From the NCBI RefSeq assembly GCF_010731655.1, contig NZ_AP022619.1:744001-808000 (forward strand): a stretch of 64,000 bases of DNA, given 5' to 3'. This DNA comes from Mycobacterium paraseoulense (GTDB lineage: Bacteria; Actinomycetota; Actinomycetes; Mycobacteriales; Mycobacteriaceae). Of this stretch, positions 5,347 through 46,817 are shown one piece after another. The translations under genes were made by a program, and so were the position numbers. Positions within the stretch are counted from its first letter, which is position 1. Each line of letters starts with the position of its first letter. The notes beneath the pieces are model-generated. The model was not told where the DNA came from. It ran no database searches and was given only the letters and a program-made list of their open reading frames with translations.

Positions 5347-7040
5347 CGGCCCGGATCGCCGGCAACCCTGCGGCCGGCGGCGTGGCGGGCGGCGACGTAG
5401 CCGAACACCATTGTGTAGGCGATGCTTCCACCCGCGCCCAGGTAATTCCGGCCCATCACCGTCGCCGTGATGTTCCCCGTCGCGTAGAGTCCGTCGATCA
5501 CGCAGTCGTCCTCGTCGATGACCTGCGCGTGCTCGTTGGTGATCACCCCGCCGCACGTCCCGACGTCGGCCGGAACGACTTTGGTGGCGTAGTACGGCGA
5601 CCGCTCGAGCGGACCGAGCGCGGCGTTGGGGCGGTACCCGGGGTCCCCGAGGCAGTCGTTGTACGCCGACTGCCCGCGCCCGAAGTCCGGGTCGAGGCCC
5701 TTGGCCGCAAAACCGTTGAACCGCTTGATCGTCTGCTCGAGCGCGTCGGCCGGAACGCCCATCTGGCGCGCCAGGTCAGCGATGGTCTCGCCCCGCACGA
5801 CCGCGCCCTTCGTGATGAGTTCTTCGGGGAGGCGACGCCTCTTGAACGGGTTGGCCCCCGAAACGTATCGGCTGATGTAGCCCTCGTCGAACACCATCCA
5901 GCAGGGCACGGCCTTGTTCGCATACATCGCCTTGCCGACCTCGACGTACGAGTTGGACTCGTTGCAGAACCGCCGGCCCGTTCCGTCGACGTAGATGGCC
6001 CCGGGCCGCTGCCGGCCGCTGCCCAGCGCCTTCGCCGCGTCACCACCGTCGGCGATGAAAACCGATGGCAGCCACCAGGCCTCGTCCATCAGGTCGGTCT
6101 TGGCCCCCAGCCGGATCGCGGTCTGCAGCACCTCGCCGGTGTCGCCGGCGTTGGCGATCGACCAGAGCCCCTCGTTGGGCTGCTCGCCGCTGTAGCGGCG
6201 GCGCATGTCCGCGTTGCGGCTGAAGCCGCCCGCGGCGAGCAGGACGCCCTTGCGGGCCTCGACATTCAGGGCGGTGCCGCTACGCGACACCCGCGCGCCG
6301 ACGACACGGCCGTCCTCGACGATCAGGTCTTCGACTGCGGCGCCGGTCCAGATCGGTGGTTCGCCGCGCAGATCGATGAGCACCTTGAGCATCTGGCCGA
6401 TCAGTGATGCGCCGTTGGTGAGGATCTCGCGGCGGCGGAGCCGGGCGGCCCTGGTGCGCGCGAACACCCGCACGGCCACGGCGAAGGCCCGCGGTGACCG
6501 GTTGAAGTACTGCACCGACCGCAGCTCGTTGGTTTTCAGGACGAATCCGCCGTAGGCCTTGGCCATCGAGGGCTGAACCTTGTCGCGCCAGCTGCCCAGC
6601 GCGGCCGCATCGTATGGCACGCACTCGATCGCGCGGCCGGCCTCGTTGCCGCCCTTGTGATTCGGGTAGTAGTCGCTCCAGCCGGGGCACCGCACAAACC
6701 GGACACCCTTGCGGGTCAGGAAGGTGATCATTTCGTAGCCCGCGGAGAGGAACATCTCGCGCCGCGCCGGCGACGACGCCGCGCCGATGTCACCGACGAC
6801 GTCGTCGAAGTATGCCAGACCGTCCTCGTGCGAGTCCGGCACGCCGGCGGCGCGCATCAGCGGGTTGTTCGGCAGCCACACCATGCCACCGGAAAGCCCG
6901 GTGGAACCGCCCACCAGGGGCTGCTTCTCGATCACCAGGGGGTCGATCCCGGAGTCGAGCGCCGCCAGGGCCGCGACCATGCCGCCGCCGCCGCTGCCTG
7001 CGATGAGCAGATCGACCGAGCGGTCCCATCGGGTGGTCAT
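5343..7040 (-). CDS. FAD-dependent oxidoreductase, 3-ketosteroid dehydrogenase-like
   Basis: A 565-residue flavoprotein of the fumarate reductase / 3-oxosteroid 1-dehydrogenase family. It has an N-terminal FAD-binding Rossmann motif (LLIAGSGGGGMVAALAA, residues about 10-26), the GGSTGLSGGMVWLPNN signature, and the C-terminal GLYATGNITATVMGRNYLGA block shared with KstD enzymes. The family inserts a double bond next to a ketone and passes electrons via FAD. The true substrate may be steroidal or another cyclic ketone (inference). The start is the ATG at 7040, which overlaps the Rieske gene stop as ATGA (translational coupling). A longer open frame continues upstream but runs through the Rieske gene. 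It is the last gene of the eight-gene operon. Confidence 0.88.
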   Translation of the reverse strand: MTTRWDRSVDLLIAGSGGGGMVAALAALDSGIDPLVIEKQPLVGGSTGLSGGMVWLPNNPLMRAAGVPDSHEDGLAYFDDVVGDIGAASSPARREMFLSAGYEMITFLTRKGVRFVRCPGWSDYYPNHKGGNEAGRAIECVPYDAAALGSWRDKVQPSMAKAYGGFVLKTNELRSVQYFNRSPRAFAVAVRVFARTRAARLRRREILTNGASLIGQMLKVLIDLRGEPPIWTGAAVEDLIVEDGRVVGARVSRSGTALNVEARKGVLLAAGGFSRNADMRRRYSGEQPNEGLWSIANAGDTGEVLQTAIRLGAKTDLMDEAWWLPSVFIADGGDAAKALGSGRQRPGAIYVDGTGRRFCNESNSYVEVGKAMYANKAVPCWMVFDEGYISRYVSGANPFKRRRLPEELITKGAVVRGETIADLARQMGVPADALEQTIKRFNGFAAKGLDPDFGRGQSAYNDCLGDPGYRPNAALGPLERSPYYATKVVPADVGTCGGVITNEHAQVIDEDDCVIDGLYATGNITATVMGRNYLGAGGSIAYTMVFGYVAARHAAGRRVAGDPGR

Positions 7041-8422
7041 CGTGGCCCCGCGCTGAAACCCAGGTCGGCGACCGGCACGTCGATGGTGGTGTTGGTCTTC
7101 TGGATCCCGGGCACCAGCTCGTCGTACGGCAGGCCGGCGAGGAATCCGTCGACGACACGTTCGAAATTGGAGATCAGCCCCTCGATCTGGTCGGACAATC
7201 GCATGTAGGCAAACCCCTTGGAGTGCAACCCCTTTTGCTGCCTGGGCAGGTTGGAGAAGTCTTGGGCGGGGATCGGCGGCCAGCGCGGGTCGTCGGGCGC
7301 CATCGGCTCGGGGGGCTGGGGCCTGCCCGCCGAGAGGTCGTCGGGTAGCCGGGTGAGCGACCAGATCTCGAACAGCGTGTCCTCGGGCCCGAGCGGACGG
7401 ATCCGGTACGACGACGCGCTGCTGTAGGTGGGCAGGATGAAGTAGTGCGGAAAGCAGAACCCGATCGCGTCGGTGATGCCGCGGCGGACCAGGTCGTTGA
7501 GGTCGGGCATATCGCTGCCCCTCGCCCGATGCCAGGCGACGACGGCATCGTTGAGCGCGGTGCGCCACGCGCCCGCCGCCCCGGCCGGGTCGGCCGGCAG
7601 CTCGATGTGCTGCAGCCCCTCGGCGATCCGGATGTCGTTGTCGTGGGTCATGCCGCCCATTCCCGTGCCGAGCGTGCGCATGAAGTACAGGCTGCTCGCG
7701 ATGACCGGATGCACCGGGGATTTCACCGCCCCGCCGCTCTGCGCGGACGGCATCAACTGCGGATGAGTCTGGGGGACGTGGTATCCCTCCATGAACGCCT
7801 CCGTCGCCAGCTTCCAATTGACCGGCAACCGGCACGACTGCCACCACTCGACCCGCAGCGATTCCACCTTCCACGCGTCATAGATCGACGCGAAGGGCTC
7901 CAGGCAGTCGCGCAGCGCGGGGGCGCCGTCGTCGAGGTTGATCCACGCGCAGCCTCCCCAGGTCTCACACCGGACCGAAACCAGCTGCAAATCCGGCGGA
8001 TCCAGGTTCTCCTGGGCGAACACCTCGGGTCGTAACACGAAGGTGCTGCGTCCGTCGATGCCCCAGCACCAGCCGTGGAAGGGGCAGACGAAGGTCCGCC
8101 GAGATCCGCTGCCCTCCACCAGCTTCACCCCGCGATGGCGGCACGCATTGTGGTAGGCCCGCACGGTGTCGGCGTCGACGCGCACCACGATGATCGACTG
8201 ATCCAGGATTTCGTACTCGACGAAGTCGCCCGCCTTGGGGATCTCCTCGAGCCGGCAGGCCATCTGCCAGACGCGCGGCCAGAAGGTCTCGGCCTCGAGC
8301 GCGTAGAACTCGGCGTCGTAGTAGCGCTGCTTGGGAATGCGATCGGCGGTCTGCACCGCCCACGGCACCGGCAGCGGTGTCCAGTTCACCGCGCCTGTCA
8401 CTGGATCTGTCTTGGCAGCCAT
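7037..8422 (-). CDS. Rieske [2Fe-2S] non-haem iron oxygenase, alpha subunit
   Basis: A 461-residue aromatic-ring-hydroxylating-type oxygenase. The Rieske domain has ligands Cys94, His96, Cys113 and His116 (CRHRG and CPFHGWCW). The catalytic domain has the mononuclear iron site in EAFMEGYHVPQTH, His215 and His220. Such enzymes hydroxylate or dihydroxylate ring compounds using O2 and electrons from a separate reductase. No reductase or beta subunit is encoded here, as for KshA-type monooxygenases, which use a reductase encoded elsewhere. The ATG start has GGGATGG upstream. It lies 20 bases after the acyl-CoA synthetase gene and couples by ATGA to the KstD-like gene, suggesting consecutive oxygenation and dehydrogenation steps. 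Confidence 0.9.
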   Translation of the reverse strand: MAAKTDPVTGAVNWTPLPVPWAVQTADRIPKQRYYDAEFYALEAETFWPRVWQMACRLEEIPKAGDFVEYEILDQSIIVVRVDADTVRAYHNACRHRGVKLVEGSGSRRTFVCPFHGWCWGIDGRSTFVLRPEVFAQENLDPPDLQLVSVRCETWGGCAWINLDDGAPALRDCLEPFASIYDAWKVESLRVEWWQSCRLPVNWKLATEAFMEGYHVPQTHPQLMPSAQSGGAVKSPVHPVIASSLYFMRTLGTGMGGMTHDNDIRIAEGLQHIELPADPAGAAGAWRTALNDAVVAWHRARGSDMPDLNDLVRRGITDAIGFCFPHYFILPTYSSASSYRIRPLGPEDTLFEIWSLTRLPDDLSAGRPQPPEPMAPDDPRWPPIPAQDFSNLPRQQKGLHSKGFAYMRLSDQIEGLISNFERVVDGFLAGLPYDELVPGIQKTNTTIDVPVADLGFSAGPR

Positions 8423-8442
8423 CTCGCCATCCCTCGTTCGGT

Positions 8443-9975
8443 TCACACGATCCGCGATGCCCGGCCCTGCCAGTACCGTTCGCGCATGCGTCTCTTGTAC
8501 AGCTTCCCGTTCGGGTCTCGGGGCAGTTCCGGGACGAATTCGACGGTGCGCGGGCACTTGTAACCCGCCACGTGTGCGCGGCAGTACTCGATGAGCTCGG
8601 CCTCGAGGCCGGGGCCGGGTGTGACGCCGTCGACCGGTTGCACGACGGCCTTGACCTCCTCGCCGAACTCGTGGTTGGGGACGCCGAATACGGCCGCGTC
8701 GACGAGTTTGGGATGCATGATGAGGAGATTTTCGACTTCCTGCGGGTAGATGTTCACCCCGCCGGAGACGATCATGAACGTGGACCGGTCGGTGAGGTAG
8801 AGGTACCCGTCCTCGTCGACGTAGCCCATGTCGCCCAGGGTGCGCCAGCCGCGGTCGTTGGACACCGACGCGGTCTTGGCGGGGTCCTTGAAGTACTCGA
8901 AATCCGGTCCGCCCTCGAAGAAGAGCTCGCCTGCGTGGCCGGCGGGAAGCTCGACGCCGTCGTCCCCGATGACGTGCACCGGCGACATGGGTTTGCCGAC
9001 CGAACCGGGATGGGCGAGCCATTCGTCGGGGCCGATCGTGGTGCCCGCGAATCCCTCGGTGCCACCGTAGTATTCGTGAATGATGGGTCCGAACCACTTC
9101 ATCATCTGGTGCTTGACGTCGACCGGACAGGGTGCGGCCGCGTGGATGACGCACCGCAGGCTCGAGACGTCGTAACGTTTCCGGACTTCCCTGGGCAGCT
9201 TCAGCATCCGCACGAACATGGTGGGCACGAACTGGGCGTGCGTCACCCGGTGGGTCTCGATCAGCCGCAGCACGGTCTCGGCGTCGAACCTGCGCATGAG
9301 GATGGCCGCCGCCCCCACCCGGTTGACCGCCATGGTGTAGTTCACCCCGGCGGCGTGGTAGAGCGGCGCGGGGGAGAGGTACACGCTGTCCCGGCCCATC
9401 CCGTACTTGTGGGTCAGCGCGAGCTCCAAGACCCCTTGAGCCCATGAGCCGTTGCCGTCGGTCGGGAGGGGCCGGCGGACGGCCTTGGGCCGCCCCGTGG
9501 TGCCCGACGAGTACAGCATCTCCGACCCGTCCGACATCGGCGGCGCGCCACCGGCGGTCGCCGCCGCATCCTCGTACGCGCTCCAGCCCGCCAGGGGTCC
9601 CCCCACCGCGAGGTGGACGGTGACGGCCGCGTTGGCCGCGCGCACGTGGGCGGCAAGTTCGGGCATGGTGGCGTCGACGACCACCGCCCGCGCGTCGGAG
9701 TCGTCGATCACGTAGGCGACCTCGTCCGGGGTGAAGTGGGTGTTGACCGCGGTGTAGTAGAGACCGGAAAGCTGACAGGCCCAGGTGATTTCGAGGAACT
9801 CGGGCCGGTTCGGCAAGATCAGTGCCACACCGTCGCCCCGGCGCAGCCCGGCGGCGTGCAGCGCGGCGGCGACCCGTTGGCTCCTCTCGTACAGTTCGCC
9901 GAAGGAAATCACGCCGCCGTCGGCAAGCAGTGCCGGCGATTGTGCGGCCACGATCGCGTGATCGGCGATGTTCAC
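8443..9975 (-). CDS. Acyl-CoA synthetase (AMP-dependent, FadD-type)
   Basis: A 510-residue ANL-superfamily ligase. The P-loop-like motif is LYSSGTTGRPKAV (about residues 158-170). The adenylate motif is YYGGTEGF, the hinge is TGD-like (WRTLGDMGYVDEDGYLYLTDR), and the A10 motif ends in a Lys (LPRDPNGKLYKRR). It activates a carboxylic acid to its acyl-CoA via an acyl-AMP; the acid is not known. The GTG at 9975 is used because the upstream stop of the enoyl-CoA hydratase gene is only eight bases away and family homology begins there. In this operon it probably activates a side chain or ring-cleavage product for CoA-dependent degradation by the hydratase and CoA-transferase. Confidence 0.88.
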   Translation of the reverse strand: MNIADHAIVAAQSPALLADGGVISFGELYERSQRVAAALHAAGLRRGDGVALILPNRPEFLEITWACQLSGLYYTAVNTHFTPDEVAYVIDDSDARAVVVDATMPELAAHVRAANAAVTVHLAVGGPLAGWSAYEDAAATAGGAPPMSDGSEMLYSSGTTGRPKAVRRPLPTDGNGSWAQGVLELALTHKYGMGRDSVYLSPAPLYHAAGVNYTMAVNRVGAAAILMRRFDAETVLRLIETHRVTHAQFVPTMFVRMLKLPREVRKRYDVSSLRCVIHAAAPCPVDVKHQMMKWFGPIIHEYYGGTEGFAGTTIGPDEWLAHPGSVGKPMSPVHVIGDDGVELPAGHAGELFFEGGPDFEYFKDPAKTASVSNDRGWRTLGDMGYVDEDGYLYLTDRSTFMIVSGGVNIYPQEVENLLIMHPKLVDAAVFGVPNHEFGEEVKAVVQPVDGVTPGPGLEAELIEYCRAHVAGYKCPRTVEFVPELPRDPNGKLYKRRMRERYWQGRASRIV

Positions 9976-34400: not shown

Positions 34401-35645
34401 AACGACGGGTTCGGCGACGTCTACCTGGTGGTCGACAACTACCGGGCGCTGGCCGAAGAGAACGAGGTGCTGATCGAGCAGGTGAACCTGATCATCAACC
34501 AGGGCCCGTCTTTCGGGGTCCACGTGGTGGTCACGGCCGATCGCGAATCGGAGCTGCGGCCGCCGGTGCGCAGCGGGTTCGGATCCCGGGTCGAGCTGCG
34601 GCTGGCCGCCGTGGAGGACGCCAAACTGGTGCGGTCCCGGTTCGCTAAGGAGGTTCCGGTCAAGCCGGGCCGCGGCATGGTCGCGGTCAACTACGTCCGC
34701 CTCGATTCCGACCCGCAGGCCGGTCTGCACACGCTGGTGGCCCGCCCCGCGCTCGGCACCACACCGGGCTACGTGTTCGAGTCCGACAGCGTCATCGACG
34801 CGGTCAGTCGCCTCACGACCGGGCAGGCCCCGCCGGTGCGGCGCCTGCCCGCCCGGTTCGACGTGGCGCAGCTGCGGGAGCTGGCGGCGCAAGACACCCG
34901 CCAAGGGGTCGGCGCGGGCGGAATCGCTTGGGCCATCTCCGAATTGGACCTGTCGCCGGTCTACCTCAATTTCGCCGAGAACGCGCACCTGATGGTGACG
35001 GGCCGACGGGAATGTGGGCGGACCACCACGCTGGCCACCATCATGTCCGAGATCGGCCGGCTGTATGCACCGGGAGCGAGCAGCGCACCGCCGCCGCCTG
35101 CCGGCCAGCCGTCGGCACAGGTGTGGCTGGTGGACCCACGACGCCAGCTGCTGACCGCACTGGGTTCGGACTATGTCGAGAAGTTCGCCTACAACCTCGA
35201 CGGCGTCCAGGCGATGATGGGCGAGCTCGCGGCGGTCCTGGCCGGGCGCGAACCACCGCCCGGTCTGTCCGCCGAAGAGTTGTTGTCGCGGTCGTGGTGG
35301 AGCGGCCCGGAGATCTTCCTGATCGTCGACGACATCCAGCAACTGCCGGCAGGATTCGATTCGCCGCTGCACAAGGCCGCGCCATGGGTGACTAGGGCAG
35401 CCGACGTCGGGTTGCACGTGATCGTCACGCGCACGTTCGGTGGTTGGTCGTCCGCGGGCAGCGACCCGATGCTGCGGGCGCTGGCCCAGGCGAACGCGCC
35501 GCTGCTGGTGATGGACGCCGACCCGGACGAGGGCTTCATCCGCGGCAAGATGAAGGGTGGCCCGCTGCCCCGCGGCCGAGGGCTGCTGATGGCCGAGGAC
35601 ACCGGTGTGTTCGTCCAGGTCGCGGCGACCGAATTGCGGAAATAG
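31482..35645 (+). CDS. eccC5: ESX-5 FtsK/SpoIIIE-type ATPase EccC5
   Basis: A 1387-residue motor ATPase, full-length and unsplit. Two TM helices (about residues 36-58 and 63-80) precede a DUF/stalk domain and three ATPase domains. Walker A 1 is GTTGSGKST near residue 499 with the Walker B VVVIDE. Walker A 2 is GAGGSGKTT at 872-880. The third is degenerate, GRRECGRTT at 1174-1182, with Arg in place of the key Lys. Such degeneracy is usual in EccC C-terminal domains, which bind substrate. The GTG start overlaps the eccB5 stop by four bases. M. tuberculosis EccC5 is nearly the same length. Confidence 0.97.
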   Translation: MKRGFARPTPEKPPVIKPENIVLPTPLSIPPPEGKPWWLIVVGVVVVGLLIGMVAMTFASGSHVFGGAGSIFPIFMIGGVAMMMFGGRFGGQQQMSRPKLDSMRAQFMLMLDMLRETAHESADSMDANYRWFHPAPTTLAAAVGTPRMWERKPDGKDLNFGVVRVGVGMTRPEVTWGEPQNMPTDIELEPVTGKALQEFGRYQSVVYNLPKMISLLVEPWYALDGDREQVLGLMRAIICQLAFSHGPDHVQMVVVTSDLDEWDWVKWLPHFGDPRRQDAAGNARMVYSSVREFAAEQAELFSGRGSFTPRHASSSAQTPTPHTVIVADVVDPQWEFVISAEGIDGVTFFDLTGSSMWTSVPERTLRFDDKGVIEALPRDRDTWMVIDEKPWFFALTDHISVAEAEEFAQALAHWRLAEAYEEIGQRVAHIGARDILTYYGIDDPGRIDFQALWGARTDTMGRSRLRAPFGNRSDNGELLFLDMKSLDEGGDGPHGVMSGTTGSGKSTLVRTVIESLMLSHPPEELQFVLADLKGGSAVKPFAGVPHVSRIITDLEEDQALMERFLDALWGEIARRKAICDSAGVDDAKEYNSVRLRMQARGQDMPPLPMLVVVIDEFYEWFRIMPTAVDVLDSIGRQGRAYWIHLMMASQTIESRAEKLMENMGYRLVLKARTAGAAQAAGVPNAVNLPAQAGLGYFRRSLEDIVRFQAEFLWRDYFPRGLTDDGEDAPALVHSIDYVRPQLFTNSFTPLEVSVGGPELTPAAITNGEALEADEAGDDDIEGIRVPKVGTVIIDQLRKIDFEPYRLWQPPLNQPVPIDELVERFLGHPWQEDYGTARDLVFPIGIIDRPFKHDQPPWTVDTSGPGANVLILGAGGSGKTTALQTLICSAALTHTPEQVQFYCLAYSSTALTTVARLPHVGEVAGPTDPYGVRRTVAELLALVRQRKSTFLEYGIASMEVFRRRKFGGEPGPVPNDGFGDVYLVVDNYRALAEENEVLIEQVNLIINQGPSFGVHVVVTADRESELRPPVRSGFGSRVELRLAAVEDAKLVRSRFAKEVPVKPGRGMVAVNYVRLDSDPQAGLHTLVARPALGTTPGYVFESDSVIDAVSRLTTGQAPPVRRLPARFDVAQLRELAAQDTRQGVGAGGIAWAISELDLSPVYLNFAENAHLMVTGRRECGRTTTLATIMSEIGRLYAPGASSAPPPPAGQPSAQVWLVDPRRQLLTALGSDYVEKFAYNLDGVQAMMGELAAVLAGREPPPGLSAEELLSRSWWSGPEIFLIVDDIQQLPAGFDSPLHKAAPWVTRAADVGLHVIVTRTFGGWSSAGSDPMLRALAQANAPLLVMDADPDEGFIRGKMKGGPLPRGRGLLMAEDTGVFVQVAATELRK

Positions 35646-35654
35646 GTTTGCCGG

Positions 35655-36880
<1,226 letters not shown>

Positions 36881-36884
36881 CTAG

Positions 36885-37241
<357 letters not shown>

Positions 37242-37706
37242 CGGCGTGCGCGATAGGCAAACCACCGATGAACAACCGGTTGCCGGACATGAACGCCAGT
37301 CGACGGGGAGTGAACATTGGCTGGCCTGGAATGAACAGTTGGCTTCGCGTATCGGCGCACCCGCGGTAACAAACTAATCTCATTGGCGAGCGACAGTTCG
37401 GCTATACGCGAGCTGTCGCTCGGTTGCTGACAACGGGGATCAATCGAGGCTTAAGGGTGCACGTTGTTCCTGACCGGACGTCCGAATCGGGTGGCTGCAG
37501 GCCACATTTGGGCGCCGCGTCCGGGATATGCAGGATGCACCGGCGAGCCCGTCGGCCGGGGTGGCGGACCGCGAGGTCTGGGTCGATGATTCCCGAGGTC
37601 AGGGGCCCGGGGGGTGGCGTTTGCTTACGAAGCCGTGACTACGGCCACCACTGATTCCGATGCGACGGTCGAGATTGCAGAGATCGCGACCAACTGAGGA
37701 GAACAG
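37242..37706. other. Intergenic leader upstream of the first PPE gene
   Basis: 465 bases without a credible gene. It should contain the promoter of the PPE/PE cluster and holds the inverted repeat at 37387-37422. TAACAAACTAAT at about 37368-37379 is AT-rich and could be part of a promoter. GAGGA lies just before the GTG start at 37707. Confidence 0.5.
37387..37422. promoter_or_regulatory. Perfect 10-base inverted repeat in the PPE leader
   Basis: CGAGCGACAG (37387-37396) and CTGTCGCTCG (37413-37422) are exact reverse complements separated by 16 bases. It lies about 285 bases before the first PPE gene and 145 bases after the ferredoxin gene. It could be a terminator for the ferredoxin or an operator or attenuator for the PPE cluster. 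Confidence 0.45.
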
Positions 37707-38951
37707 GTGTTTGACTTCGGGGCGTTACCGCCGGAGATTAACTCCGGTCGGATGTATGCGGGTCCGGGCTCGGGGCCGATGATGGTCGCGGCGGCCGCCT
37801 GGGATGTGCTTGCGGCCGAATTGGGTACGGCGGCAAGCGGTTACAACTCGATCATCGACGAGTTGACCAACGGGCCCTGGGTGGGCCCGGCTTCGACGTC
37901 GATGGTGGCGGCCGTCACGCCCTACGTGAGCTGGCTGACGACGATCGCCGGTCAGGCCGAGGAGACCGCCGGTCAGGCGCGTGCGGCCGCGGCCGCCTTC
38001 GAGGCCGCGTTCGCGATGACGGTCCCGCCGCCGGTGATCGCGGCCAACAGGGTGTTGCTGGCGACGCTGATCGCGACCAACTTCTTCGGGCAGAACACGC
38101 CGGCCATCGCGGCCACCGAGGCCCAGTACATGGAGATGTGGGCGCAGGACGCCGGGGCGATGTATGCCTACGCGGCGTCGTCGATGACCGCGTCGCAGAT
38201 GGCGCCGTTCGCGGCGCCGCCGCAGACCACCACGCCGGACGGCGAGGCCCAACAGTTCGCCGCCGTCTCGCAGGCCAGCACGCAGCAGGCCGGCAATACC
38301 GCGCAGACCGCCGCCAACACGTCGTCGCAGCTCGCGACGCCGCAGCTGTTGTCGGCCACCACGTCGCAAACGACGCAGCAACTCACGACCGCGGCCACGG
38401 CACCGACCACGACCGGTACCTCGCTGCAGGACATTTTGCCTACCCCGAATACCTGGTGGTGGAAGCTTGGTCCCGGTGATTACACCGCGATCATCAAGCA
38501 GACGCTGCAGGCGTACTTCGGGGTGGGGATCGGTAACTTCGGCTGGTCGATAGGCCAGCAGTTGACCTTCGGTCCCGGTGGTGGGACCGCGGGTGCCGGC
38601 GGTGCCTGGTTCCCGACCCCGCAGTTCGCCCAGTTGGGCCTGGGCAACCTTGGCAACCTGGGCCACACCGCCGGTGCGGTGACCGCTGGTGCCGGACAGG
38701 CCGCTCAGGTTGGGGGGTTGTCGGTGCCCCAGCAATGGGCCACGCTGGCCTCCACGGTGAGTCCGGCCGAGGCCGCCGAGGCGGAGGGCGCCCCGATCCA
38801 GACCGTGTCGGCCAGCAACCCACCGGGCAACGCCCTGCTGCGCGGCATGCCGACCGGGGCGGTGGGCCGTCGGGCCGGCGCCGCCGCCGGCTATTCGCAC
38901 AAATACGGCTTCCGCTACAGCGTCCTGACCCGCCCACCATCGGCCGGATAG
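37707..38951 (+). CDS. PPE protein, SVP subfamily (copy A)
   Basis: A 414-residue PPE protein. The N-terminal PPE domain ([20 protein letters not shown]; helix-turn WVG at residues 58-60; about 180 residues) is followed by a Thr/Gln/Ala-rich linker and a Gly-rich region with the SVP motif GGLSVPQQW (about 336-344). PPE proteins pair with PE partners and are exported through ESX-5 to the cell surface with EspG5 as chaperone. By position it corresponds to PPE25. GTG start, Shine-Dalgarno GAGGA. It is repeated almost identically at 41107-42351. Confidence 0.93.
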
Positions 38952-39118
38952 GGAACGTCCAAGTGAACGGAAGTTGTCCAGTAATGAACAGTCGGCACTA
39001 GGGAGGCAAGGCACCGCGTGACCCATCTAATCTCACGAGTAGGCCAAGCCCCCGGTGGGCCCGAAGGCAAACGGATAATCGAGAGCCGGCGAGCCGGGAA
39101 AGTAGGGAGGGACTTCAG

Positions 39119-39418
39119 ATGTCTTTTGTGACGACGCAGCCGGAGGCGCTGTCCGCGGCGGCGGGCAGCCTGCAGAGCATCGGCTCGGCGCTCAACGCTC
39201 AGAACGCAGCCGCTGCGGCCCCCACCACGGGTGTGGTCCCGGCCGCGGCCGACGAAGTGTCAGCGCTGACAGCGGCGCAGTTCGCCGCGCATGCCCAGAT
39301 GTACCAAGCCGTCAGCGCTCAGGCGGCGGCGATCCACGAAATGTTCGTAAACACCCTCAGCATGAGCTCGGGGTCGTATGCCGTGACTGAGGCGGCCAAC
39401 GCGGCCGCGACGGGTTAA
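39119..39418 (+). CDS. PE18: PE protein, PE18-like
   Basis: A 99-residue PE-only protein. It starts [20 protein letters not shown] and carries the type VII secretion signal YxxxE as Tyr87-Glu91 (YAVTE). Its two helices pair with a PPE helix bundle for export through ESX-5. It lies nine bases before the next PPE start, with which it should form the heterodimer. AGGGAGGG lies upstream of the ATG. It is 90% similar to the PE19-like protein at 44337. Confidence 0.93.
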
Positions 39419-39429
39419 AGGAGTCAATG

Positions 39430-40647
39430 ATGTTGGATTTCGGGGCGTTACCGCCGGAGGTCAACTCGGCGAGGATTTATGCCGGTCCGGGGTCGGGGTC
39501 GTTGATGACCGCGGCGTCGGCGTGGAATGCGCTGGCGGCGGAGCTGAACTCGGCGGCGCTGAGCTACGACAAGATCATCACGGCGCTCAGCAGCGAGGAG
39601 TGGATGGGCCCGGCGTCGGCGGCGATGGCCGCCGCGGTGCAGCCGTACGTGACCTGGATGACGACGACGGCCGCCCAGGCCGAGCAGGCGGCCACCCAGG
39701 CGCAGGCGGCCGCGGCCGCTTATGAGGCGGCGCTGGCCGCCACGGTGCCGCCGCCGCTGGTCGCGGCCAACCGAGCGCAAACCATGCAGCTGATCCAGAC
39801 CAACGTGCTGGGCCAAAACACCCCGGCCATCACGCAGCTAGAAGCGCAGTACGGCGAGATGTGGGCCCAGGACGCCGGCGCGATGTACAGCTATGCGGGC
39901 CAGTCGGCGACGGCGACCAAGGTGACACCGTTCAGCGCGTCACCCCAGATCGCCAGCCCGTCGTCTCAGGCCACCCAGGGCGCGGCCGTCACCAACGCGA
40001 CGACCAACAGCACGGCCAGCAACACCGCGTCCGCGCTGTCCAAGGTGGTCACCACGACGCCCAACACGCTGCAGACCGCGGCGACGCCGGCCGCGTCGGG
40101 GCCGCCCCCGGCAACGTACAGCGAACTGTGGTATCTGCTGACCGGGCAGACCGCGTTCCCGACCAGCCTGGGGGCCGCCGTCAACGGCTACAGCCCGTTC
40201 GCCAGCTTGTTCTACAACACCGAGGGTCTGCCGTACTTCAGTGTCGGTATGGGCAACTTCGGTGTGCAGATGGCCAAGACCCTGGGCGTGATCGGCGGCG
40301 CGGCCCCGGCGGCGGCCAAGGCCCTGCCCGGCCTGGGCGGGCTGGGTGGCCTGCTCGGCGGTGGTGCCGGCGCGGTGCACCCGGCGGCGGCCATCGGCGG
40401 TGCGGCCTCCATCGGCGGCAAGCTGTCGGTGCCGGTGGCCTGGACCGGCGCCCCGGGGCTTCCGGCCATGACCCACTCGGCCATCCCGGTCAGCGCCATC
40501 AGCGCCGCACCCGAGGGGGCCGGGGGACCGGGCAACCTGCTCGGCGGCATGCCCCTGGCCGGGGTGGGCAGCGGCACCCACGCCGGTGCCGGACCCCGAT
40601 ACGGGTTCCGCCCCACCGTCATGGCCCGCCCCCCCTTCGCCGGATAG
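39430..40647 (+). CDS. PPE protein, SVP subfamily (copy B)
   Basis: A 405-residue PPE protein. The PPE domain begins [22 protein letters not shown]; the linker is Ser/Thr/Ala-rich. The C-terminal part is Gly-rich ([14 protein letters not shown]) and has GKLSVPVAW as SVP motif. By position it corresponds to PPE26. ATG 39430 is the equivalent of the copy B' start; an ATG directly before it (39427) is also possible. AAAGGAG lies 6 bases upstream. It shares a transcription unit with the PE gene and is nearly identical to 42697-43914. Confidence 0.93.
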
Positions 40648-40654
40648 CCGTCCA

Positions 40655-40718
40655 CAGCACGCCAAAGACGCTTTAGCGCGCGAAAAGTGCCGCGCTGAAG
40701 CGTCTTTGGCGTGTGCTG
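40655..40718. repeat. Long imperfect hairpin after PPE copy B
   Basis: The left arm (40655-40680, starting CAGCACGCCAAAGACGCTTT) pairs with the right arm (40691-40718) apart from a two-base insertion and one mismatch, around a 10-base loop. It lies seven bases downstream of the PPE stop and is a strong terminator-like structure without a U-tract, or a small palindromic repeat element. Confidence 0.55.
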
Positions 40719-41079
40719 CCGGACGGGACTCGCCGGCGCGGATCTTGCGCGCCCGCTGAGCGGGCCGTTGCCGTGGTGAGGTTTTCTGCGGCCGGATTTT
40801 TATCGGGTCCGCAGGGATGATCCGCGCGTAGATGCGCGGCCCGCCGGGCATGAGTGGTCCGGCTGGCGCCGGGTTTCCGCAGGTGGTCGCATGGGTTCTC
40901 GACGCGACCGACCGCCGGTGTGCATTCGTGCCCGCGCCGCGACGCCGGCCGCGCAGCCCATAAACCATCCGCGCGGTCCGCTAGCGGACAGCGCCGAGGC
41001 ATCGCGGCAACTTAGCCTTCGCAACATGCAAGCAATCGCTTGACCGTCATTCGACGAAGACCAGTTGCGGGGAAAACAG

Positions 41080-41106
41080 ATGCCGTTCGAACCGGGCGTT
41101 TCGTAG
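41080..41106 (+). CDS. Possible 8-codon upstream ORF before PPE copy A'
   Basis: ATG at 41080 begins an 8-residue reading frame (MPFEPGVS) whose TAG stop directly abuts the GTG start of the PPE gene (TAGGTG). GGGGAAAACAG lies upstream as a Shine-Dalgarno sequence. Copy A' has no good Shine-Dalgarno sequence of its own, so its translation may depend on re-initiation. Speculative. Confidence 0.3.
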   Translation: MPFEPGVS

Positions 41107-42351
41107 GTGTTTGACTTCGGGGCGTTACCGCCGGAGATTAACTCCGGTCGGATGTATGCGGGTCCGGGCTCGGGGCCGATGATGGTCGCGGCGGCCGCCT
41201 GGGATGTGCTTGCGGCCGAATTGGGTACGGCGGCAAGCGGTTACAACTCGATCATCGACGAGTTGACCAACGGGCCCTGGGTGGGCCCGGCTTCGACGTC
41301 GATGATCGCGGCCGTCACGCCCTACGTGAGCTGGCTGACGACGATCGCCGGTCAGGCCGAGAAGACCGCCGGTCAAGCGCGTGCGGCCGCGGCCGCCTTC
41401 GAGGCCGCGTTCGCGATGACGGTCCCGCCGCCGGTGATCGCGGCCAACAGGGTGTTGCTGGCGACGCTGATCGCGACCAACTTCTTCGGGCAGAACACGC
41501 CGGCCATCGCGGCCACCGAGGCCCAGTACATGGAGATGTGGGCGCAGGACGCCGGGGCGATGTATGCCTACGCGGCGTCGTCGATGACCGCGTCGCAGAT
41601 GGCGCCGTTCGCGGCGCCGCCGCAGACCACCACGCCGGACGGCGAGGCCCAACAGTTCGCCGCCGTCTCGCAGGCCAGCACGCAGCAGGCCGGCAATACC
41701 GCGCAGACCGCCGCCAACACGTCGTCGCAGCTCGCGACGCCGCAGCTGTTGTCGGCCACCACGTCGCAAACGACGCAGCAACTCACGACCGCGGCCACGG
41801 CACCGACCACGACCGGCACCTCGCTGCAGGACATTTTGCCTACCCCGAATACCTGGTGGTGGAAGCTTGGTCCCGGTGATTACACCGCGATCATCAAGCA
41901 GACGCTGCAGGCGTACTTCGGGGTGGGGATCGGAAACTTCGGCTGGTCGATAGGCCAGCAGTTGACCTTCGGTCCCGGTGGTGGGACCGCGGGTGCCGGC
42001 GGTGCCTGGTTCCCGACCCCGCAGTTCGCCCAGTTGGGCCTGGGCAACCTTGGCAACCTGGGCCACACCGCCGGTGCGGTGACCGCTGGTGCCGGACAGG
42101 CCGCTCAGGTTGGGGGGTTGTCGGTGCCCCAGCAATGGGCCACGCTGGCCTCCACGGTGAGTCCGGCCGAGGCCGCCGAGGCGGAGGGCGCCCCGATCCA
42201 GACCGTGTCGGCCAGCAACCCACCGGGCAACGCCCTGCTGCGCGGCATGCCGACCGGGGCGGTGGGCCGTCGGGCCGGCGCCGCCGCCGGCTATTCGCAC
42301 AAATACGGCTTCCGCTACAGCGTCCTGACCCGCCCACCATCGGCCGGATAG
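41107..42351 (+). CDS. PPE protein, SVP subfamily (copy A', duplicate of copy A)
   Basis: A 414-residue PPE protein with only two residue changes from copy A seen by eye (Val to Ile near residue 68 and Glu to Lys near 80). About six nucleotide differences exist over 1245 bases. Domain layout and SVP motif are as for copy A. No PE gene follows; the next gene is PPE copy B'. The homology to copy A begins at the GTG and ends at the stop codon. Confidence 0.92.
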
Positions 42352-42696
42352 CAGCGCTGATGACCACCCGCCGTTCGCTTTATCCGCGACAGGATTTTTT
42401 CCCGGGCGCTTTACGCCCCGGCCGCGCTGAGCCAGCGGCAGCGAGGCTCGCGCTTCGCTCGGTGACGCCGCTGGGAGATCGCCACGCGTGTCTTGTTCCA
42501 GCTCATGGCCCGCAAGCGACCCGTCGCCCAACATCTGCCCAATTCTCCGCGACCGGAGCGCGGCAACCAGCCGAGCGACGCTCGCGCCCGGTCACAGCCG
42601 TGACCACCGAATTCACGGGCGGGCGGCCGATCACATTCGCACTACCGTCAGTGGCTACTCGAAGCCAAGCGGCCACAACGGGTTAAGGGGTATTCG
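42352..42696. other. Spacer between PPE copies A' and B' with a possible PE-gene remnant
   Basis: 345 bases with GC-rich hairpins around 42400-42475. Its last 30 bases resemble the end of a PE gene: the stretch ending GCGGCCACAACGGGTTAA (42669-42686) matches the PE18 gene end (GCGGCCGCGACGGGTTAA) in 16 of 18 bases. The upstream remainder of a PE reading frame is not recognisable. Confidence 0.4.
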
Positions 42697-43914
42697 GTGT
42701 TGGATTTTGGGGCGATTCCGCCGGAGGTCAATTCGGCGAGGATTTATGCCGGTCCGGGGTCGGGGTCGTTGATGACCGCGGCGTCGGCGTGGAATGCGCT
42801 GGCGGCGGAGCTGAACTCGGCGGCGCTGAGCTACGACAAGATCATCACGGCGCTCAGCAGCGAGGAGTGGATGGGCCCGGCGTCGGCGGCGATGGCCGCC
42901 GCGGTGCAGCCGTACGTGACCTGGATGACGACGACGGCCGCCCAGGCCGAGCAGGCGGCCACCCAGGCGCAGGCGGCCGCGGCCGCTTATGAGGCGGCGC
43001 TGGCCGCCACGGTGCCGCCGCCGCTGGTCGCGGCCAACCGAGCGCAAACCATGCAGCTGATCCAGACCAACGTGCTGGGCCAAAACACCCCGGCCATCAC
43101 GCAGCTAGAAGCGCAGTACGGCGAGATGTGGGCCCAGGACGCCGGCGCGATGTACAGCTATGCGGGCCAGTCGGCGACGGCGACCAAGGTGACACCGTTC
43201 AGCGCGTCACCCCAGATCGCCAGCCCGTCGTCTCAGGCCACCCAGGGCGCGGCCGTCACCAACGCGACGACCAACAGCACGGCCAGCAACACCGCGTCCG
43301 CGCTGTCCAAGGTGGTCACCACGACGCCCAACACGCTGCAGACCGCGGCGACGCCGGCCGCGTCGGGGCCGCCCCCGGCAACGTACAGCGAACTGTGGTA
43401 TCTGCTGACCGGGCAGACCGCGTTCCCGACCAGCCTGGGGGCCGCCGTCAACGGCTACAGCCCGTTCGCCAGCTTGTTCTACAGCACCGAGGGTCTGCCG
43501 TACTTCAGTGTCGGTATGGGCAACTTCGGTGTGCAGATGGCCAAGACCCTGGGCGTGATCGGCGGCGCGGCCCCGGCGGCGGCCAAGGCCCTGCCCGGCC
43601 TGGGCGGGCTGGGTGGCCTGCTCGGCGGTGGTGCCGGCGCGGTGCACCCGGCGGCGGCCATCGGCGGTGCGGCCTCCATCGGCGGCAAGCTGTCGGTGCC
43701 GGTGGCCTGGACCGGCGCCCCGGGGCTTCCGGCCATGACCCACTCGGCCATCCCGGTCAGCGCCATCAGCGCCGCACCCGAGGGGGCCGGGGGACCGGGC
43801 AACCTGCTCGGCGGCATGCCCCTGGCCGGGGTGGGCAGCGGCACCCACGCCGGTGCCGGACCCCGATACGGGTTCCGCCCCACCGTCATGGCCCGCCCCC
43901 CCTTCGCCGGATAG
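42697..43914 (+). CDS. PPE protein, SVP subfamily (copy B', duplicate of copy B)
   Basis: A 405-residue PPE protein nearly identical to copy B. The only residue differences seen are Leu to Ile in the FGAxPPE motif and Asn to Ser near residue 260 (FYSTEG). The first 40 bases differ at several third positions, after which only one change is visible. It has a GTG start with AAGGGG nine bases upstream. By position it corresponds to PPE27, but in sequence it is a copy of copy B. Confidence 0.92.
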
Positions 43915-44336
43915 CCCCGACCGACGGCTCGCCAGGATGACCTAGGGGTTAACAGAGAGGGTCGGACACGGGTCGGCGCTCCGCAGTTCCGGGCCCGCCG
44001 CGATCAGCCGTGGGGCCATCGCGGGTGGGCCGTCCACCCGTTGCTAGCGGATCGTCGGGACATAATGGCAAACAGATTTTTAAGGGGCTTGCCCTGCGGC
44101 AGCGCCCCGGCCGACGTCGACCAGGTTCTTTACCCACCGACTCCGTCACAGTTTGCTGTGACGGAGCTGAAAGGGAGGCGGTCCGGGCCGGACGCTGTTA
44201 CTGTGGCGTTACTAAAAATGAATTCGTCGTACCGTCACGTGAACAGTTGCAAACAGGCGGCTTCCGAAAGAGCTTCGCAGGCCGCGGTCATCTACTCTCT
44301 GCAGAGTCGGGGATTGAACTTAGGAGGGAATCAGGC
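43915..44336. other. Leader upstream of the PE19-like gene
   Basis: 422 bases without a credible gene. The AT-rich stretch at about 44060-44080 could hold a promoter (TTTTTAAGG). A perfect hairpin lies at 44141-44166. It should drive PE19 and perhaps esxM-esxN, which are strongly expressed in related species. Confidence 0.5.
44141..44166. promoter_or_regulatory. Perfect 11-base-pair hairpin in the PE19 leader
   Basis: CTCCGTCACAG (44141-44151), loop TTTG, CTGTGACGGAG (44156-44166). The stem is exact with a 4-base loop. It lies 170 bases upstream of the PE19 start and is followed by purine-rich sequence rather than a U-tract. It could be a leader attenuator, an mRNA-stabilising 5' hairpin or an operator. 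Confidence 0.5.
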
Positions 44337-44636
44337 ATGTCTTTCGTGACCACACAGCCGGAGGCGTTGGCTGCGGCGGCCGGAAACCTGCAGGCCATTG
44401 GCTCAACGCTGAGCGCTCAGAACGCGGCTGCCGCCGCCCCCACGACCGGGGTGGTTCCGGCTGCGGCCGACGAGGTGTCGGCGCTGACGGCGGCGCAGTT
44501 CGCGGCGCACGCGCAGATGTACCAGGCGGTCAGCGCTCAGGCCGCCGCCATTCACGAGGCGTTCGTGAACACTCTGTCGATGAGCTCGGGCTCCTACGCT
44601 GCGACCGAGGCAGCCAACGCAGCTGCTGCGGGCTGA
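44337..44636 (+). CDS. PE19: PE protein, PE19-like
   Basis: A 99-residue PE-only protein with the secretion signal YxxxE at Tyr87-Glu91 (YAATE). It is about 90% identical to the PE at 39119. ATG 44337 has AGGAGGG nine bases upstream. An upstream open extension to 44010 is not supported by homology. It is the last PE before esxM, the position of PE19 in M. tuberculosis. With no PPE right after it, its partner may be either upstream PPE. Confidence 0.93.
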   Translation: MSFVTTQPEALAAAAGNLQAIGSTLSAQNAAAAAPTTGVVPAAADEVSALTAAQFAAHAQMYQAVSAQAAAIHEAFVNTLSMSSGSYAATEAANAAAAG

Positions 44637-44927
44637 TCGGACCGGCGGTTGGATGGTTTGGGGACGGACGTCATCGACGTGGTCTTCCGCCGCCTGACCG
44701 CCCAGCTACCGATGATCTCGGGGGCTGACGGCCGGACAACTCAAACGCCGGGGTTCGGGTTTGACGTCCGTCTCACCGTGTTACAGCGACCGGTGGCCGC
44801 CGGCTGACGGGAAGGGGGGATCATCCTTTTGTATTCGGCTCGGCGGTTCGCCAGCGCGTAACCGGTCCGGCCATCGTCGTAACCACATCAAGTATCTGAG
44901 TACTCACGTATTAAGGAGACAGCCAGC

Positions 44928-45224
44928 ATGGCAACACGTTTTATGACTGACCCGCACGAGATGCGGGCGATGGCGGGTCGCTTCGAGGTGCACGCCCAGA
45001 CGGTTGAGGACGAGGCCCGCAAGATGTGGGCGTCGTCGATGAACATCGCCGGCTCGGGCTGGAGCGGTCAGGCGCAGGCGACCTCGTACGACACCATGGG
45101 TCAGGTCAACCAGGCCTTCCGCAACATCGTCAACATGCTCCACGGGGTGCGCGACGGGCTGATCCGCGACGCCAACAACTACGAGCAGCAAGAGCAGGCC
45201 TCGCAGCAAATCCTCGGCAGCTAG
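44928..45224 (+). CDS. esxM: ESX-5 WXG100 substrate EsxM (QILSS subfamily)
   Basis: A 98-residue ESAT-6-like protein of the CFP-10 side. The WSG turn is at GWSGQAQ, and the C-terminal signal is YEQQE (Tyr85-Glu89). The end QQILGS corresponds to QILSS with a Gly for a Ser. It forms a 1:1 helical-hairpin heterodimer with EsxN and is exported by ESX-5. AAGGAG lies upstream of the ATG. The protein is full-length, without an internal stop. Confidence 0.96.
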
Positions 45225-45274
45225 CGCTAAAAACCGCGACTGCGTACCATTCCAGACATTAGGAGAACACCGTT

Positions 45275-45559
45275 ATGACAATCAATTACCAGTTCGGCGA
45301 TGTCGACGCCCACGGTGCCTTGATCCGCGCCCAGGCCGCGTCTTTGGAGGCTGAGCACCAGGCCATCGTTCGCGATGTGCTTGCTGCGGGTGACTTCTGG
45401 GGCGGCGCCGGTTCGGTGGCCTGCCAGGAGTTCATCACCCAGTTGGGTCGCAACTTCCAGGTGATCTACGAGCAGGCCAACGCCCACGGGCAGAAGGTGC
45501 AAAGTGCCGGCAGCAACATGGCCAGCACCGACAGCGCCGTTGGGTCCAGCTGGGCCTAA
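45275..45559 (+). CDS. esxN: ESX-5 WXG100 substrate EsxN (Mtb9.9 subfamily)
   Basis: A 94-residue ESAT-6-like protein. It begins TINYQFGDVDAHGALIRAQA and has the WGG turn in DFWGGAGSVA. It is the partner of EsxM, 50 bases downstream, and among the most abundant ESX-5 products in related species. AGGAG lies upstream of the ATG. The gene is followed by a strong hairpin, so it may be the end of a highly transcribed unit. Confidence 0.96.
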   Translation: MTINYQFGDVDAHGALIRAQAASLEAEHQAIVRDVLAAGDFWGGAGSVACQEFITQLGRNFQVIYEQANAHGQKVQSAGSNMASTDSAVGSSWA

Positions 45560-45572
45560 CCCCAACTTCAGG

Positions 45573-45607
45573 CGCGGCAGCACACCACACACCGGTGTGC
45601 TGCCGCG
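45573..45607. terminator. Perfect 14-base-pair hairpin between esxN and espG5
   Basis: CGCGGCAGCACACC (45573-45586) and GGTGTGCTGCCGCG (45594-45607) are exact reverse complements around a 7-base loop. It lies 13 bases after the esxN stop and 39 before espG5. No U-tract follows. It can stop or attenuate transcription, or stabilise the esx mRNA 3' end. Confidence 0.65.
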
Positions 45608-45646
45608 TCCTGCGGTTACCGTGCACTTTGAACCCTTGAGGTAGTG

Positions 45647-46549
45647 ATGGACCAACAGACCGCCCGCACCGACATCACCGTTAACGTCGACGGTTTCTGG
45701 ATGCTCCAGGCTCTTCTGGACATCCGGCACGTCGCGCCGGAGTTGCGCTGCCGGCCATTTGTTTCTACCGACTCGAGCGACTGGCTCAACGAGCATCCCG
45801 GCATGGCGGTGATGCGCGAGCAGGGCATCGTCGAAAACGACCAGGTGAATGAACATGTGGCCGCTCGGATGAGGGTGCTCGCCGCGCCGGACCTCGAGGT
45901 CATCGCCCTGCTGTCGCGGGGCAAGCTGCTCTACGGCGTGGTCGACGACGAAAATCAACCACCCGGTTCGCGCGACATACCCGACAACGAGTTCCGCGTG
46001 GTGCTCGCGCGTCGTGGTCAGCACTGGGTGTCGGCGGTGCGGGTCGGCAGCGACATCACCGTCGATGACGTCGCCATCGCCGACAGCGCATCGATCGCGT
46101 CCCTGGTCTTGGACGCGCTGGAGTCGATACACCACGCCGAACCCGCGGCGATCAATGCGGTGAACGTGCCGCTGGAGGAGATGCTGGAAGCGACGAAGTC
46201 GTGGCAGGAGTCGGGCTTCAACGTGTTTTCCGGCGGTGACCTGCGGCGCATGGGCATCAGCGCCGCCACCGTGGCCGCGCTGGGACAGGCCCTCTCGGAT
46301 CCGGCTGCCGAGGTCGCGGTGTACGCGCGTCAATACCGGGACGACGCGAAGGGGCCCAGCGCCTCGGTGCTGTCGCTCAAAGACGGTTCCGGTGGTCGCA
46401 TCGCCCTCTACCAGCAGGCGCGGACGGCCGGGTCGGGCGAGGCCTGGCTGGCCATCTGCCCGGCGACCCCCCAGTTGGTGCAGGTGGGCGTCAAGACCGT
46501 GCTGGACACGCTTCCCTACGGCGAGTGGAAAACCCACAGCAGGGTCTGA
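45647..46549 (+). CDS. espG5: ESX-5 PE/PPE chaperone EspG5
   Basis: A 300-residue cytosolic EspG-family chaperone that binds the helical tip of PPE proteins and keeps PE-PPE dimers soluble for ESX-5. It is highly similar in memory to M. tuberculosis EspG5 (DITVNVDGFWMLQALLDIRHVAPEL, KSWQESGFNVFSGGDLRRMG). ATG 45647 is used; a GTG directly upstream in frame is possible. It lies just downstream of the esxN hairpin. Confidence 0.96.
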   Translation: MDQQTARTDITVNVDGFWMLQALLDIRHVAPELRCRPFVSTDSSDWLNEHPGMAVMREQGIVENDQVNEHVAARMRVLAAPDLEVIALLSRGKLLYGVVDDENQPPGSRDIPDNEFRVVLARRGQHWVSAVRVGSDITVDDVAIADSASIASLVLDALESIHHAEPAAINAVNVPLEEMLEATKSWQESGFNVFSGGDLRRMGISAATVAALGQALSDPAAEVAVYARQYRDDAKGPSASVLSLKDGSGGRIALYQQARTAGSGEAWLAICPATPQLVQVGVKTVLDTLPYGEWKTHSRV

Positions 46550-46685
46550 CATTCGACGAAACATAAAGTTCACCAATGTCTTTGCACTCAACATGCGGTT
46601 GAGAAGCCAACACGGCATACTTCTCTAAGAGATTCAGCAAATCTCTAACCACTGTCACGACAGGTTTAATCGCAAGGCGGGGTAG

Positions 46686-46817
46686 ATGGAATTCGGAATA
46701 GTCGAGCTGCACTTTCCCGGGGGCCGCAGCCCCTCGGAAGGCGGGCCGGCGCACACCCTCGCCCGGCTGGCGGCGCGGGGTTACACGTTCACGACGGTAA
46801 GGGGTTCAGGGCGATGA
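46686..46817 (+). CDS. Possible 43-residue small ORF coupled to eccD5
   Basis: ATG at 46686 opens a 43-codon frame (begins MEFGIVELHFPGGRSPSEGG) whose TGA overlaps the eccD5 ATG as ATGA. AAGGCGGGG lies nine bases upstream. The predicted peptide has no signal or TM segment and no family I can name. Its start/stop arrangement would couple its translation to eccD5. The espG5-eccD5 gap otherwise has no gene. Confidence 0.4.
   Translation: MEFGIVELHFPGGRSPSEGGPAHTLARLAARGYTFTTVRGSGR

Follow-up and report, generated by a model that had tools for sequence, protein, structure and literature searches.

How do neighbouring genes come to be almost identical over their whole coding length when the DNA between them is not? 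The question is raised by four PPE genes at positions 37,707 to 43,914 of a 64,000-nucleotide stretch of the Mycobacterium paraseoulense genome (assembly GCF_010731655.1, contig NZ_AP022619.1, positions 744,001 to 808,000; hereafter the window). These genes, two PPE25-like (A and A') and two PPE26-like (B and B') in the order A-B-A'-B', lie in the ESX-5 locus of a slow-growing Mycobacterium close to M. seoulense and M. scrofulaceum, whose genome is a single contig of 6.09 Mb. All four proteins matched PF00823 and PF12484 above the cut-off, which places them in the PPE-SVP subfamily, and their location between the cyp143-ferredoxin genes and the PE-esx-esx-espG5 genes (names by synteny) is that of PPE25/PPE26-type genes of ESX-5. 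The copies are very probably old duplicates, recently homogenised by gene conversion from the upstream onto the downstream genes and within the gene bodies only.

Extent of identity between the copies

Base by base, A and A' displayed six mismatches over 1245 bases and no gaps (gene bases 199, 201, 256, 270, 711 and 828), while B and B' displayed six over 1218 (bases 1, 12, 19, 21, 36 and 788), each pair thus being 99.5% identical. Five of the six B/B' mismatches were located in the first 36 bases, and from base 37 onwards identity was unbroken save for base 788. The frequency of differences in A (6/1245) and in B past base 36 (1/1182) did not differ significantly (Fisher p 0.13), which is compatible with one event or two.

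Identity between A and A' set in 2 bases 5' of the start codon and ran to the end of the stop codon, with unrelated flanks on both sides. Between B and B' it ended within 2 bases of the stop, and about 34 bases of weak, gapped similarity were found upstream. The preliminary description of this DNA had given the coordinates of the copies and about six A/A' differences, both of which proved exact. Its near-identity of B and B' also stood, but not its counts (about five differences, four of them in the first 40 bases). Likewise, its statements that identity stops exactly at the gene ends and that the spacers share no detectable similarity held on both sides of A/A', and identity did stop at the stop codon of B/B', but the weak similarity upstream of that pair calls for a slight correction. 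The copies do have different leaders at the DNA level, as it had proposed.

In a search of the whole genome with A as the only query, the next-best match reached 76% over 520 bases, and the near-identity of A and A' is therefore not due to chance. A donor elsewhere in the genome was rejected on the same figures, in a search that covered A and not B.

Other genomes showed where homology between such copies ends. Among 81 within-genome pairs, homology began at most 15 bases from the start codon in 56 and ended at most 15 bases from the stop in 71; the exceptions at the start were mostly B pairs with extra upstream homology, along with a few with a shared upstream PE gene. The end of detectable homology between the two positions, which usually falls at the gene ends, thus largely explains why identity stops there, and since a tract can hardly end beyond the homology, no special device at the gene ends is needed.

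Age of the duplication and direction of copying

Related loci were retrieved with espG5 as anchor, and 89 loci (window included) were retained with more than 8 kb upstream of this gene. Five duplicate loci were merged, and 70 loci with countable PPE genes were kept; locus counts were made on 63 loci with an espG5 identity of at least 90%, those below 90% being left out, and PPE genes shorter than about 850 or longer than about 1400 bases were excluded. The loci do not all represent distinct species, and the comparison was conducted at the species level, with one genome of M. paraseoulense. By espG5 and eccD5-start DNA, M. nebraskense was the closest named record to the window (94.0%), together with other M. 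scrofulaceum-group genomes (91 to 94%). The closest locus with a complete cassette was L121 (genome G357, one contig), with an espG5 identity of 98%.

The A-B-A-B order was found in 28 of the 63 loci, a single A-B in 24, A-B-B-A-B in 5 and other orders in 6; in two of the 28 (L150 and L153), cyp143 and the ferredoxin gene lay between the pairs. In the three sister loci with a whole cassette (L121, L051 and L050), the copies at the first and second positions were 77.5 to 79.7% identical for A (A1/A2) and 88.1 to 90.2% for B (B1/B2). Window spacers aligned with those of L121 at the same positions: 97.6% for ferredoxin-A (fdx-A), 95.8% for A-PE, 76.5% over 468 bases for B-A', 75.6% over the last 131 bases of A'-B' and 91.5% for B'-PE. 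Spacers of L050 matched the window at the same places, as did those of L051 except for A'-B', where the L051 spacer is only 111 bases long. When the inner spacers (B-A' and A'-B') were searched in 396 genomes (E 1e-20 and 1e-10), each was found only in its own genome, in G357 and in G094, with weaker partial matches in L051, L078 and L056.

The flanks of the window copies were therefore independent of each other and orthologous by position, as in a gene-converting pair, and spacers duplicated along with the genes, the mark of a recent tandem duplication, were not found in the window. Because the second-pair spacers align with same-position spacers of the sisters, the second pair was not freshly duplicated and its gene bodies were overwritten. 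The A-B-A'-B' arrangement is itself old, and the copies are old duplicates. Gene conversion between older duplicates, as first suggested from the window alone, was borne out: the order and the spacers are common to sisters with diverged copies, and in the trees A' and B' fall with the upstream genes.

The direction of overwriting was read from similarity, trees and diagnostic sites. A' shared 94% identity with A1 of L121 and 73% with its A2, and B' shared 93% with B1 of L051 and 86% with its B2. In the trees, A' was placed next to A inside the clade of position-1 (upstream) copies, and B' beside B, together with B1 of L051. Constraining A' to group with the second copies of the sisters cost 118 log-likelihood units and was rejected by the approximately unbiased (AU) test (p 3.7e-29); for B' the cost was 268 units (p 1.6e-7), the groups in both tests being defined by position after a first tree had been seen. 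A had 60 strict diagnostic columns, with gaps included; A' showed the position-1 state in 56 of them and the position-2 state in 3, with the same counts for A. Within bases 1 to 21 of B', the GTG start and two more bases are found in some sister B2 copies, which probably puts the left boundary of the B tract within the gene, past base 21. Base 19 is private to B', and base 36 is uninformative, sister B1 and B2 copies mostly having the B' base.

We propose that an old duplication inside the ESX-5 locus gave rise to the two PPE25-like and two PPE26-like genes and that, in the lineage of the window and after its split from the nearest compared species, the downstream genes were overwritten with the sequence of the upstream ones. 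The process would be recombination between copies without loss of the intervening DNA, that is, gene conversion, with tracts covering A' end to end and B' from somewhere past base 21 to the stop. Ordinary homologous recombination between direct repeats 3.3 to 3.4 kb apart is the likely mechanism, and the tracts would end at the gene ends as homology ends there. In our judgement, the likeness of the copies is best seen as a by-product of close direct repeats, in preference to a benefit in dosage or expression or to a need for a common PPE-SVP half.

Recurrence in related species and rival explanations

Homogenised copies were also found outside the window. Stretches of 150 bases with at least 98% identity between copies occurred in 11 of 36 genomes for A and in 13 of 35 for B. 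Segments of at least 200 bases numbered 29, and 28 of these were more alike within their genome than to any other compared genome (the exception being B1/B3 of L140, bases 809 to 1019), and A/A' and B/B' of the window were likewise more alike within the genome than to their orthologues, as gene-converting pairs are. In some loci homogenisation was almost complete: L139 (genome G175, one contig) had a B pair at 100% and an A pair at 95.9%, L101 (M. tilburgii) a B pair at 100% and an A pair at 77%, and L131 pairs at 92.9% and 95.7%. Flanking sequences were inspected for the homogenised pairs of seven loci other than the window.

Homogenisation leaned towards the 3' part of the genes. The last 418 bases of B1 and B2 were 98 to 100% identical in L121, L051 and L050, while the same part of B1 was 90 to 96% identical between species (aligned bases). 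In trees of gene parts, within-genome sister pairs were obtained in 5 of 36 genomes for the 5' part of A and 11 of 36 for its 3' part, and in 5 versus 14 of 35 for B, some of these pairs being poorly supported (26, 37, 65, 74 and 77). All discordant genomes leaned 3', six for A (p 0.03) and nine for B (p 0.004); the genomes are related and these p values are rough.

With gaps counted, identities among L121, L051 and L050 were 74 to 80% for A' against 84 to 89% for A, and 63 to 72% for the B-A' spacer against 83 to 97% for A-PE; the B'-PE spacer in comparisons with L050 (71 to 72%) was about as diverged as B-A', and the 5' halves of B and B' varied about equally between these loci. Both inner spacers of the window were far less conserved among sisters than the fdx-A and A-PE spacers. 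Some of the divergence of the inner region may stem from exchange between strains; the inner-spacer search revealed no donor for such an exchange among the 396 genomes at the thresholds used. A tentative picture, which we hold to be rather doubtful as a whole, is that of the ESX-5 PPE cassette as a two-compartment module in this group of mycobacteria: A and the outer flanks would be stable, A' and the inner spacers would diverge fast between close species, B and B' of any one species would have variable N-terminal halves but a C-terminal PPE-SVP half held identical by repeated conversion, and the inner pair would occasionally be fully reset from the outer one, as in the window.

Several observations weigh against recent upstream-to-downstream conversion or against its generality. 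Only one strict diagnostic column was available for B, and B2 of L051 grouped with B1 of L121 and of L050, so the B genes of the sisters are mosaics and their positions are not clean; the direction for B consequently rests on similarity, the tree and three remnant bases. The remnant of the old B' shrank on checking from 36 to about 21 bases, which lowered our confidence a little. At five of the six A/A' differences, A' carried the base of another sister's A1 (bases 199, 201 and 711 as in L050 and L048, bases 270 and 828 as in L051), pointing either to a donor allele unlike the A of today, to small later exchanges or to homoplasy, with simple mutation after conversion being no obvious fit. The 29 segments had been picked for high identity, and those of L072 and L099 may be recent duplications instead. 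Finally, some clades (L067, L077, L085, L127 and kin) keep positions 1 and 2 separate in the trees, and conversion is therefore episodic: in the sisters, A/A' drifted to 78 to 80% while the 3' parts of B/B' are at 98 to 100%. We infer that the upstream copies A and B were the donors, which is well supported for A and less so for B.

The second pair could also have been replaced from another strain or species whose own second pair already resembled its first. Such an arrival would fit with a B-A' spacer that is much less conserved than A-PE whichever two of four loci are compared (six comparisons, 62 to 76% versus 82 to 97%, gaps counted) and also less conserved than B'-PE in the three comparisons not involving L050, and with several A' bases matching A1 of other species. 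However, none of the 396 genomes matched the inner spacers better than the sisters G357 and G094 at the thresholds used, nothing in the set matched A' and B' better than A and B of the same genome, and this route would still need conversion in the donor, all of which makes it improbable.

An assembly artefact, in which a single real pair was entered at two places or a consensus took the place of diverged copies, would be in keeping with the 4.3 kb gap that the related draft L048 displays at this place. It is nevertheless very improbable in a single-contig genome where unique spacers, aligning with those of the sisters, fix both positions; the five B' differences are clustered at the gene start, unlike a copy-paste error, and another single-contig genome (G175, locus L139) has B1 and B2 at 100%.

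Still less credible is a recent tandem duplication of an A-PE-B block followed by loss of the PE gene and replacement of the spacers, since the second-pair spacers align with second-pair spacers of the sisters and the A-B-A-B order is found in 28 of the 63 loci, even though both pairs are near-identical in the same order and the A-A-PE-B order of L072 and L099 possibly reflects recent duplication. Strong purifying selection keeping the copies identical ever since the duplication has a negligible probability: PPE gene ends are indeed conserved across aligned genomes (sliding identities), but each pair has six differences of any kind whereas A of the nearest species differs by about 5% and A' by 22% (aligned bases), and sister loci under the same constraint show copies at 78 to 80%.

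The ESX-5 locus and comparison with known systems

The gene order in the window was cyp143-like, small ferredoxin, A, PE, B, A', B', PE, two WXG100 genes, espG5 and eccD5 (Table 1), with a PE gene between A and B and none between A' and B'. Gene names that go further than a Pfam family (cyp143, ferredoxin, esxM, esxN and espG5) are presumed from synteny.

Table 1. Features of the ESX-5 PPE cassette and its borders, in window coordinates
Feature	Position	Strand	Basis
cyp143-like cytochrome P450 gene, left border of the cassette	35681..36853	-	Open reading frame (ORF); adjoins the cassette in many relatives; name by synteny
Small ferredoxin-like ORF	37047..37241	+	Start uncertain, listed ORF begins at 36954; name by synteny
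Spacer 5' of A (fdx-A)	37242..37706	.	Matches L121 at the same position (see text)
A, PPE25-like, PPE-SVP type; probable donor of A'	37707..38951	+	PF00823 and PF12484; trees, AU test
PE gene, PE18-like, between A and B	39119..39418	+	PF00934
B, PPE26-like, PPE-SVP type; likely donor of B'	39430..40647	+	PF00823 and PF12484; trees, AU test
Long predicted hairpin directly after B	40648..40730	.	Folding prediction; same shape after B1 in L121, L051 and L050
Spacer B-A'	40648..41106	.	Aligns with the same spacer of L121 (see text), L050 (71.5% over 456 bases) and L051 (two pieces)
A', second PPE25-like copy; probably converted from A along its whole length	41107..42351	+	PF00823 and PF12484; trees, AU test
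Spacer A'-B'	42352..42696	.	Aligns with L121 and L050 at the same position over its last ~130 bases
B', second PPE26-like copy; probably converted from B apart from its first bases	42697..43914	+	PF00823 and PF12484; trees, AU test
Likely remnant of the old B'	42697..42717	+	GTG start (base 1), T at 12 and T at 21, each in some sister second-position copies
Spacer B'-PE	43915..44336	.	Matches L121 at the same position (see text)
PE gene, PE19-like	44337..44636	+	PF00934
WXG100 gene, esxM-like	44928..45224	+	PF06013; name by synteny
WXG100 gene, esxN-like	45275..45559	+	PF06013; name by synteny
espG5-like gene; anchor for retrieving relatives	45644..46549	+	Name by synteny

The hairpin after B was predicted to be very stable (-64 kcal/mol for the first 100 bases). 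A long hairpin was predicted after B1 in all four folded loci (window, L121, L051 and L050) and not after B2, B' of the window included, a difference that counts in favour of the conversion reading. The hairpin may serve as a signal for transcription or processing between B and A'. A tRNA-Met called by ARAGORN on the minus strand inside both B and B' (39663 to 39759 and 42930 to 43026) is most likely false, with no Rfam match at the gathering threshold in 35600 to 46700. Contig ends near espG5 were not used as a sign of identical PPE copies, as many contigs end about 70 to 300 bases upstream of espG5, by spacing in the esx genes. In the M. parascrofulaceum record (L048), a run of N at 5380 to 9677 extends from just after the first PE gene to the start of esxN, over the region where B, A', B' and the second PE gene would lie. 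Three tandem cyp143-like genes were found beside the ESX-5 PPE cassette in L062 (1040 to 4628) and L132 (2579 to 6153).

PPE38/PPE71 of M. tuberculosis and their M. marinum counterparts have identical coding sequences, share upstream sequence only to about -35, and are closer within a genome than between species, which was explained by gene conversion, deletion by recombination being another outcome (PMC2758852). As in the window, these are neighbouring PPE genes with near-identical bodies, independent flanks and within-genome likeness; they represent, however, a single pair at another locus, compared among strains of one complex and M. marinum, whereas the window has two interleaved ESX-5 pairs that could be followed in many genomes.

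At the ESX-5 locus of M. tuberculosis, ppe25-ppe27 undergo recurrent deletion by non-allelic recombination between highly homologous 3' ends (PMC12663572). The genomic place and the kind of partners are those of the window, but the outcome there is deletion, as opposed to a conversion that keeps both copies. A similar deletion, by recombination between A1 and A2, is a possible origin of the arrangement in L083 (M. montefiorense, 5794 to 8330), judging from its sequence: an A-B pair without PE gene, an A-B spacer 81% identical over 58 bases to the A2-B2 spacer of L131, and outer flanks matching the upstream flank of A1 and the downstream flank of B2 of L131. L090, L097, L128 and L130 also have no PE gene, and their spacers do not decide. 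The ESX-5 region of M. riyadhense is described as variable in this part, by duplication and possibly transfer, with two ppe25/ppe26 pairs and two PE genes (PMC11237670); it shares the two-pair layout of the window, and the available passages of that report make no mention of homogenised copies.

Repeated gene conversion is described for PE_PGRS17/PE_PGRS18, a neighbouring duplicated pair in which a short 12/40 polymorphism was transferred (PMC1762029); adjacent duplicates are converted as in the window, but they belong to another gene family and a short polymorphism was moved. Genome-wide surveys of M. tuberculosis (also PMC12046097) counted 324 gene conversion events, the median tract being 101 bp long (PMC13061034), and 172 events in a different set, where 28 pe/ppe genes were involved (PMC13396471). 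The process and the gene family are the same, but tracts are short there, while in the window genes of 1.2 kb were apparently covered end to end, by one long tract or several merged ones.

Gene conversion between PPE genes is thus already established in M. tuberculosis, and the window is a further case of a known process. In the part of the literature within reach (most subscription papers were outside it), conversion of two ESX-5 PPE pairs outside the M. tuberculosis complex was not found, and neither were the cross-species record, the two interleaved pairs or the 3' lean. As a warning, copy-by-copy orthology, gene trees and short-read assemblies are unreliable at the ESX-5 PPE locus. Published conversion work, as far as accessible, is mainly concerned with the very uniform M. 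tuberculosis complex; here the same process is visible across species, with enough divergence between copies to read the recipient, the tract ends and the 3' lean.

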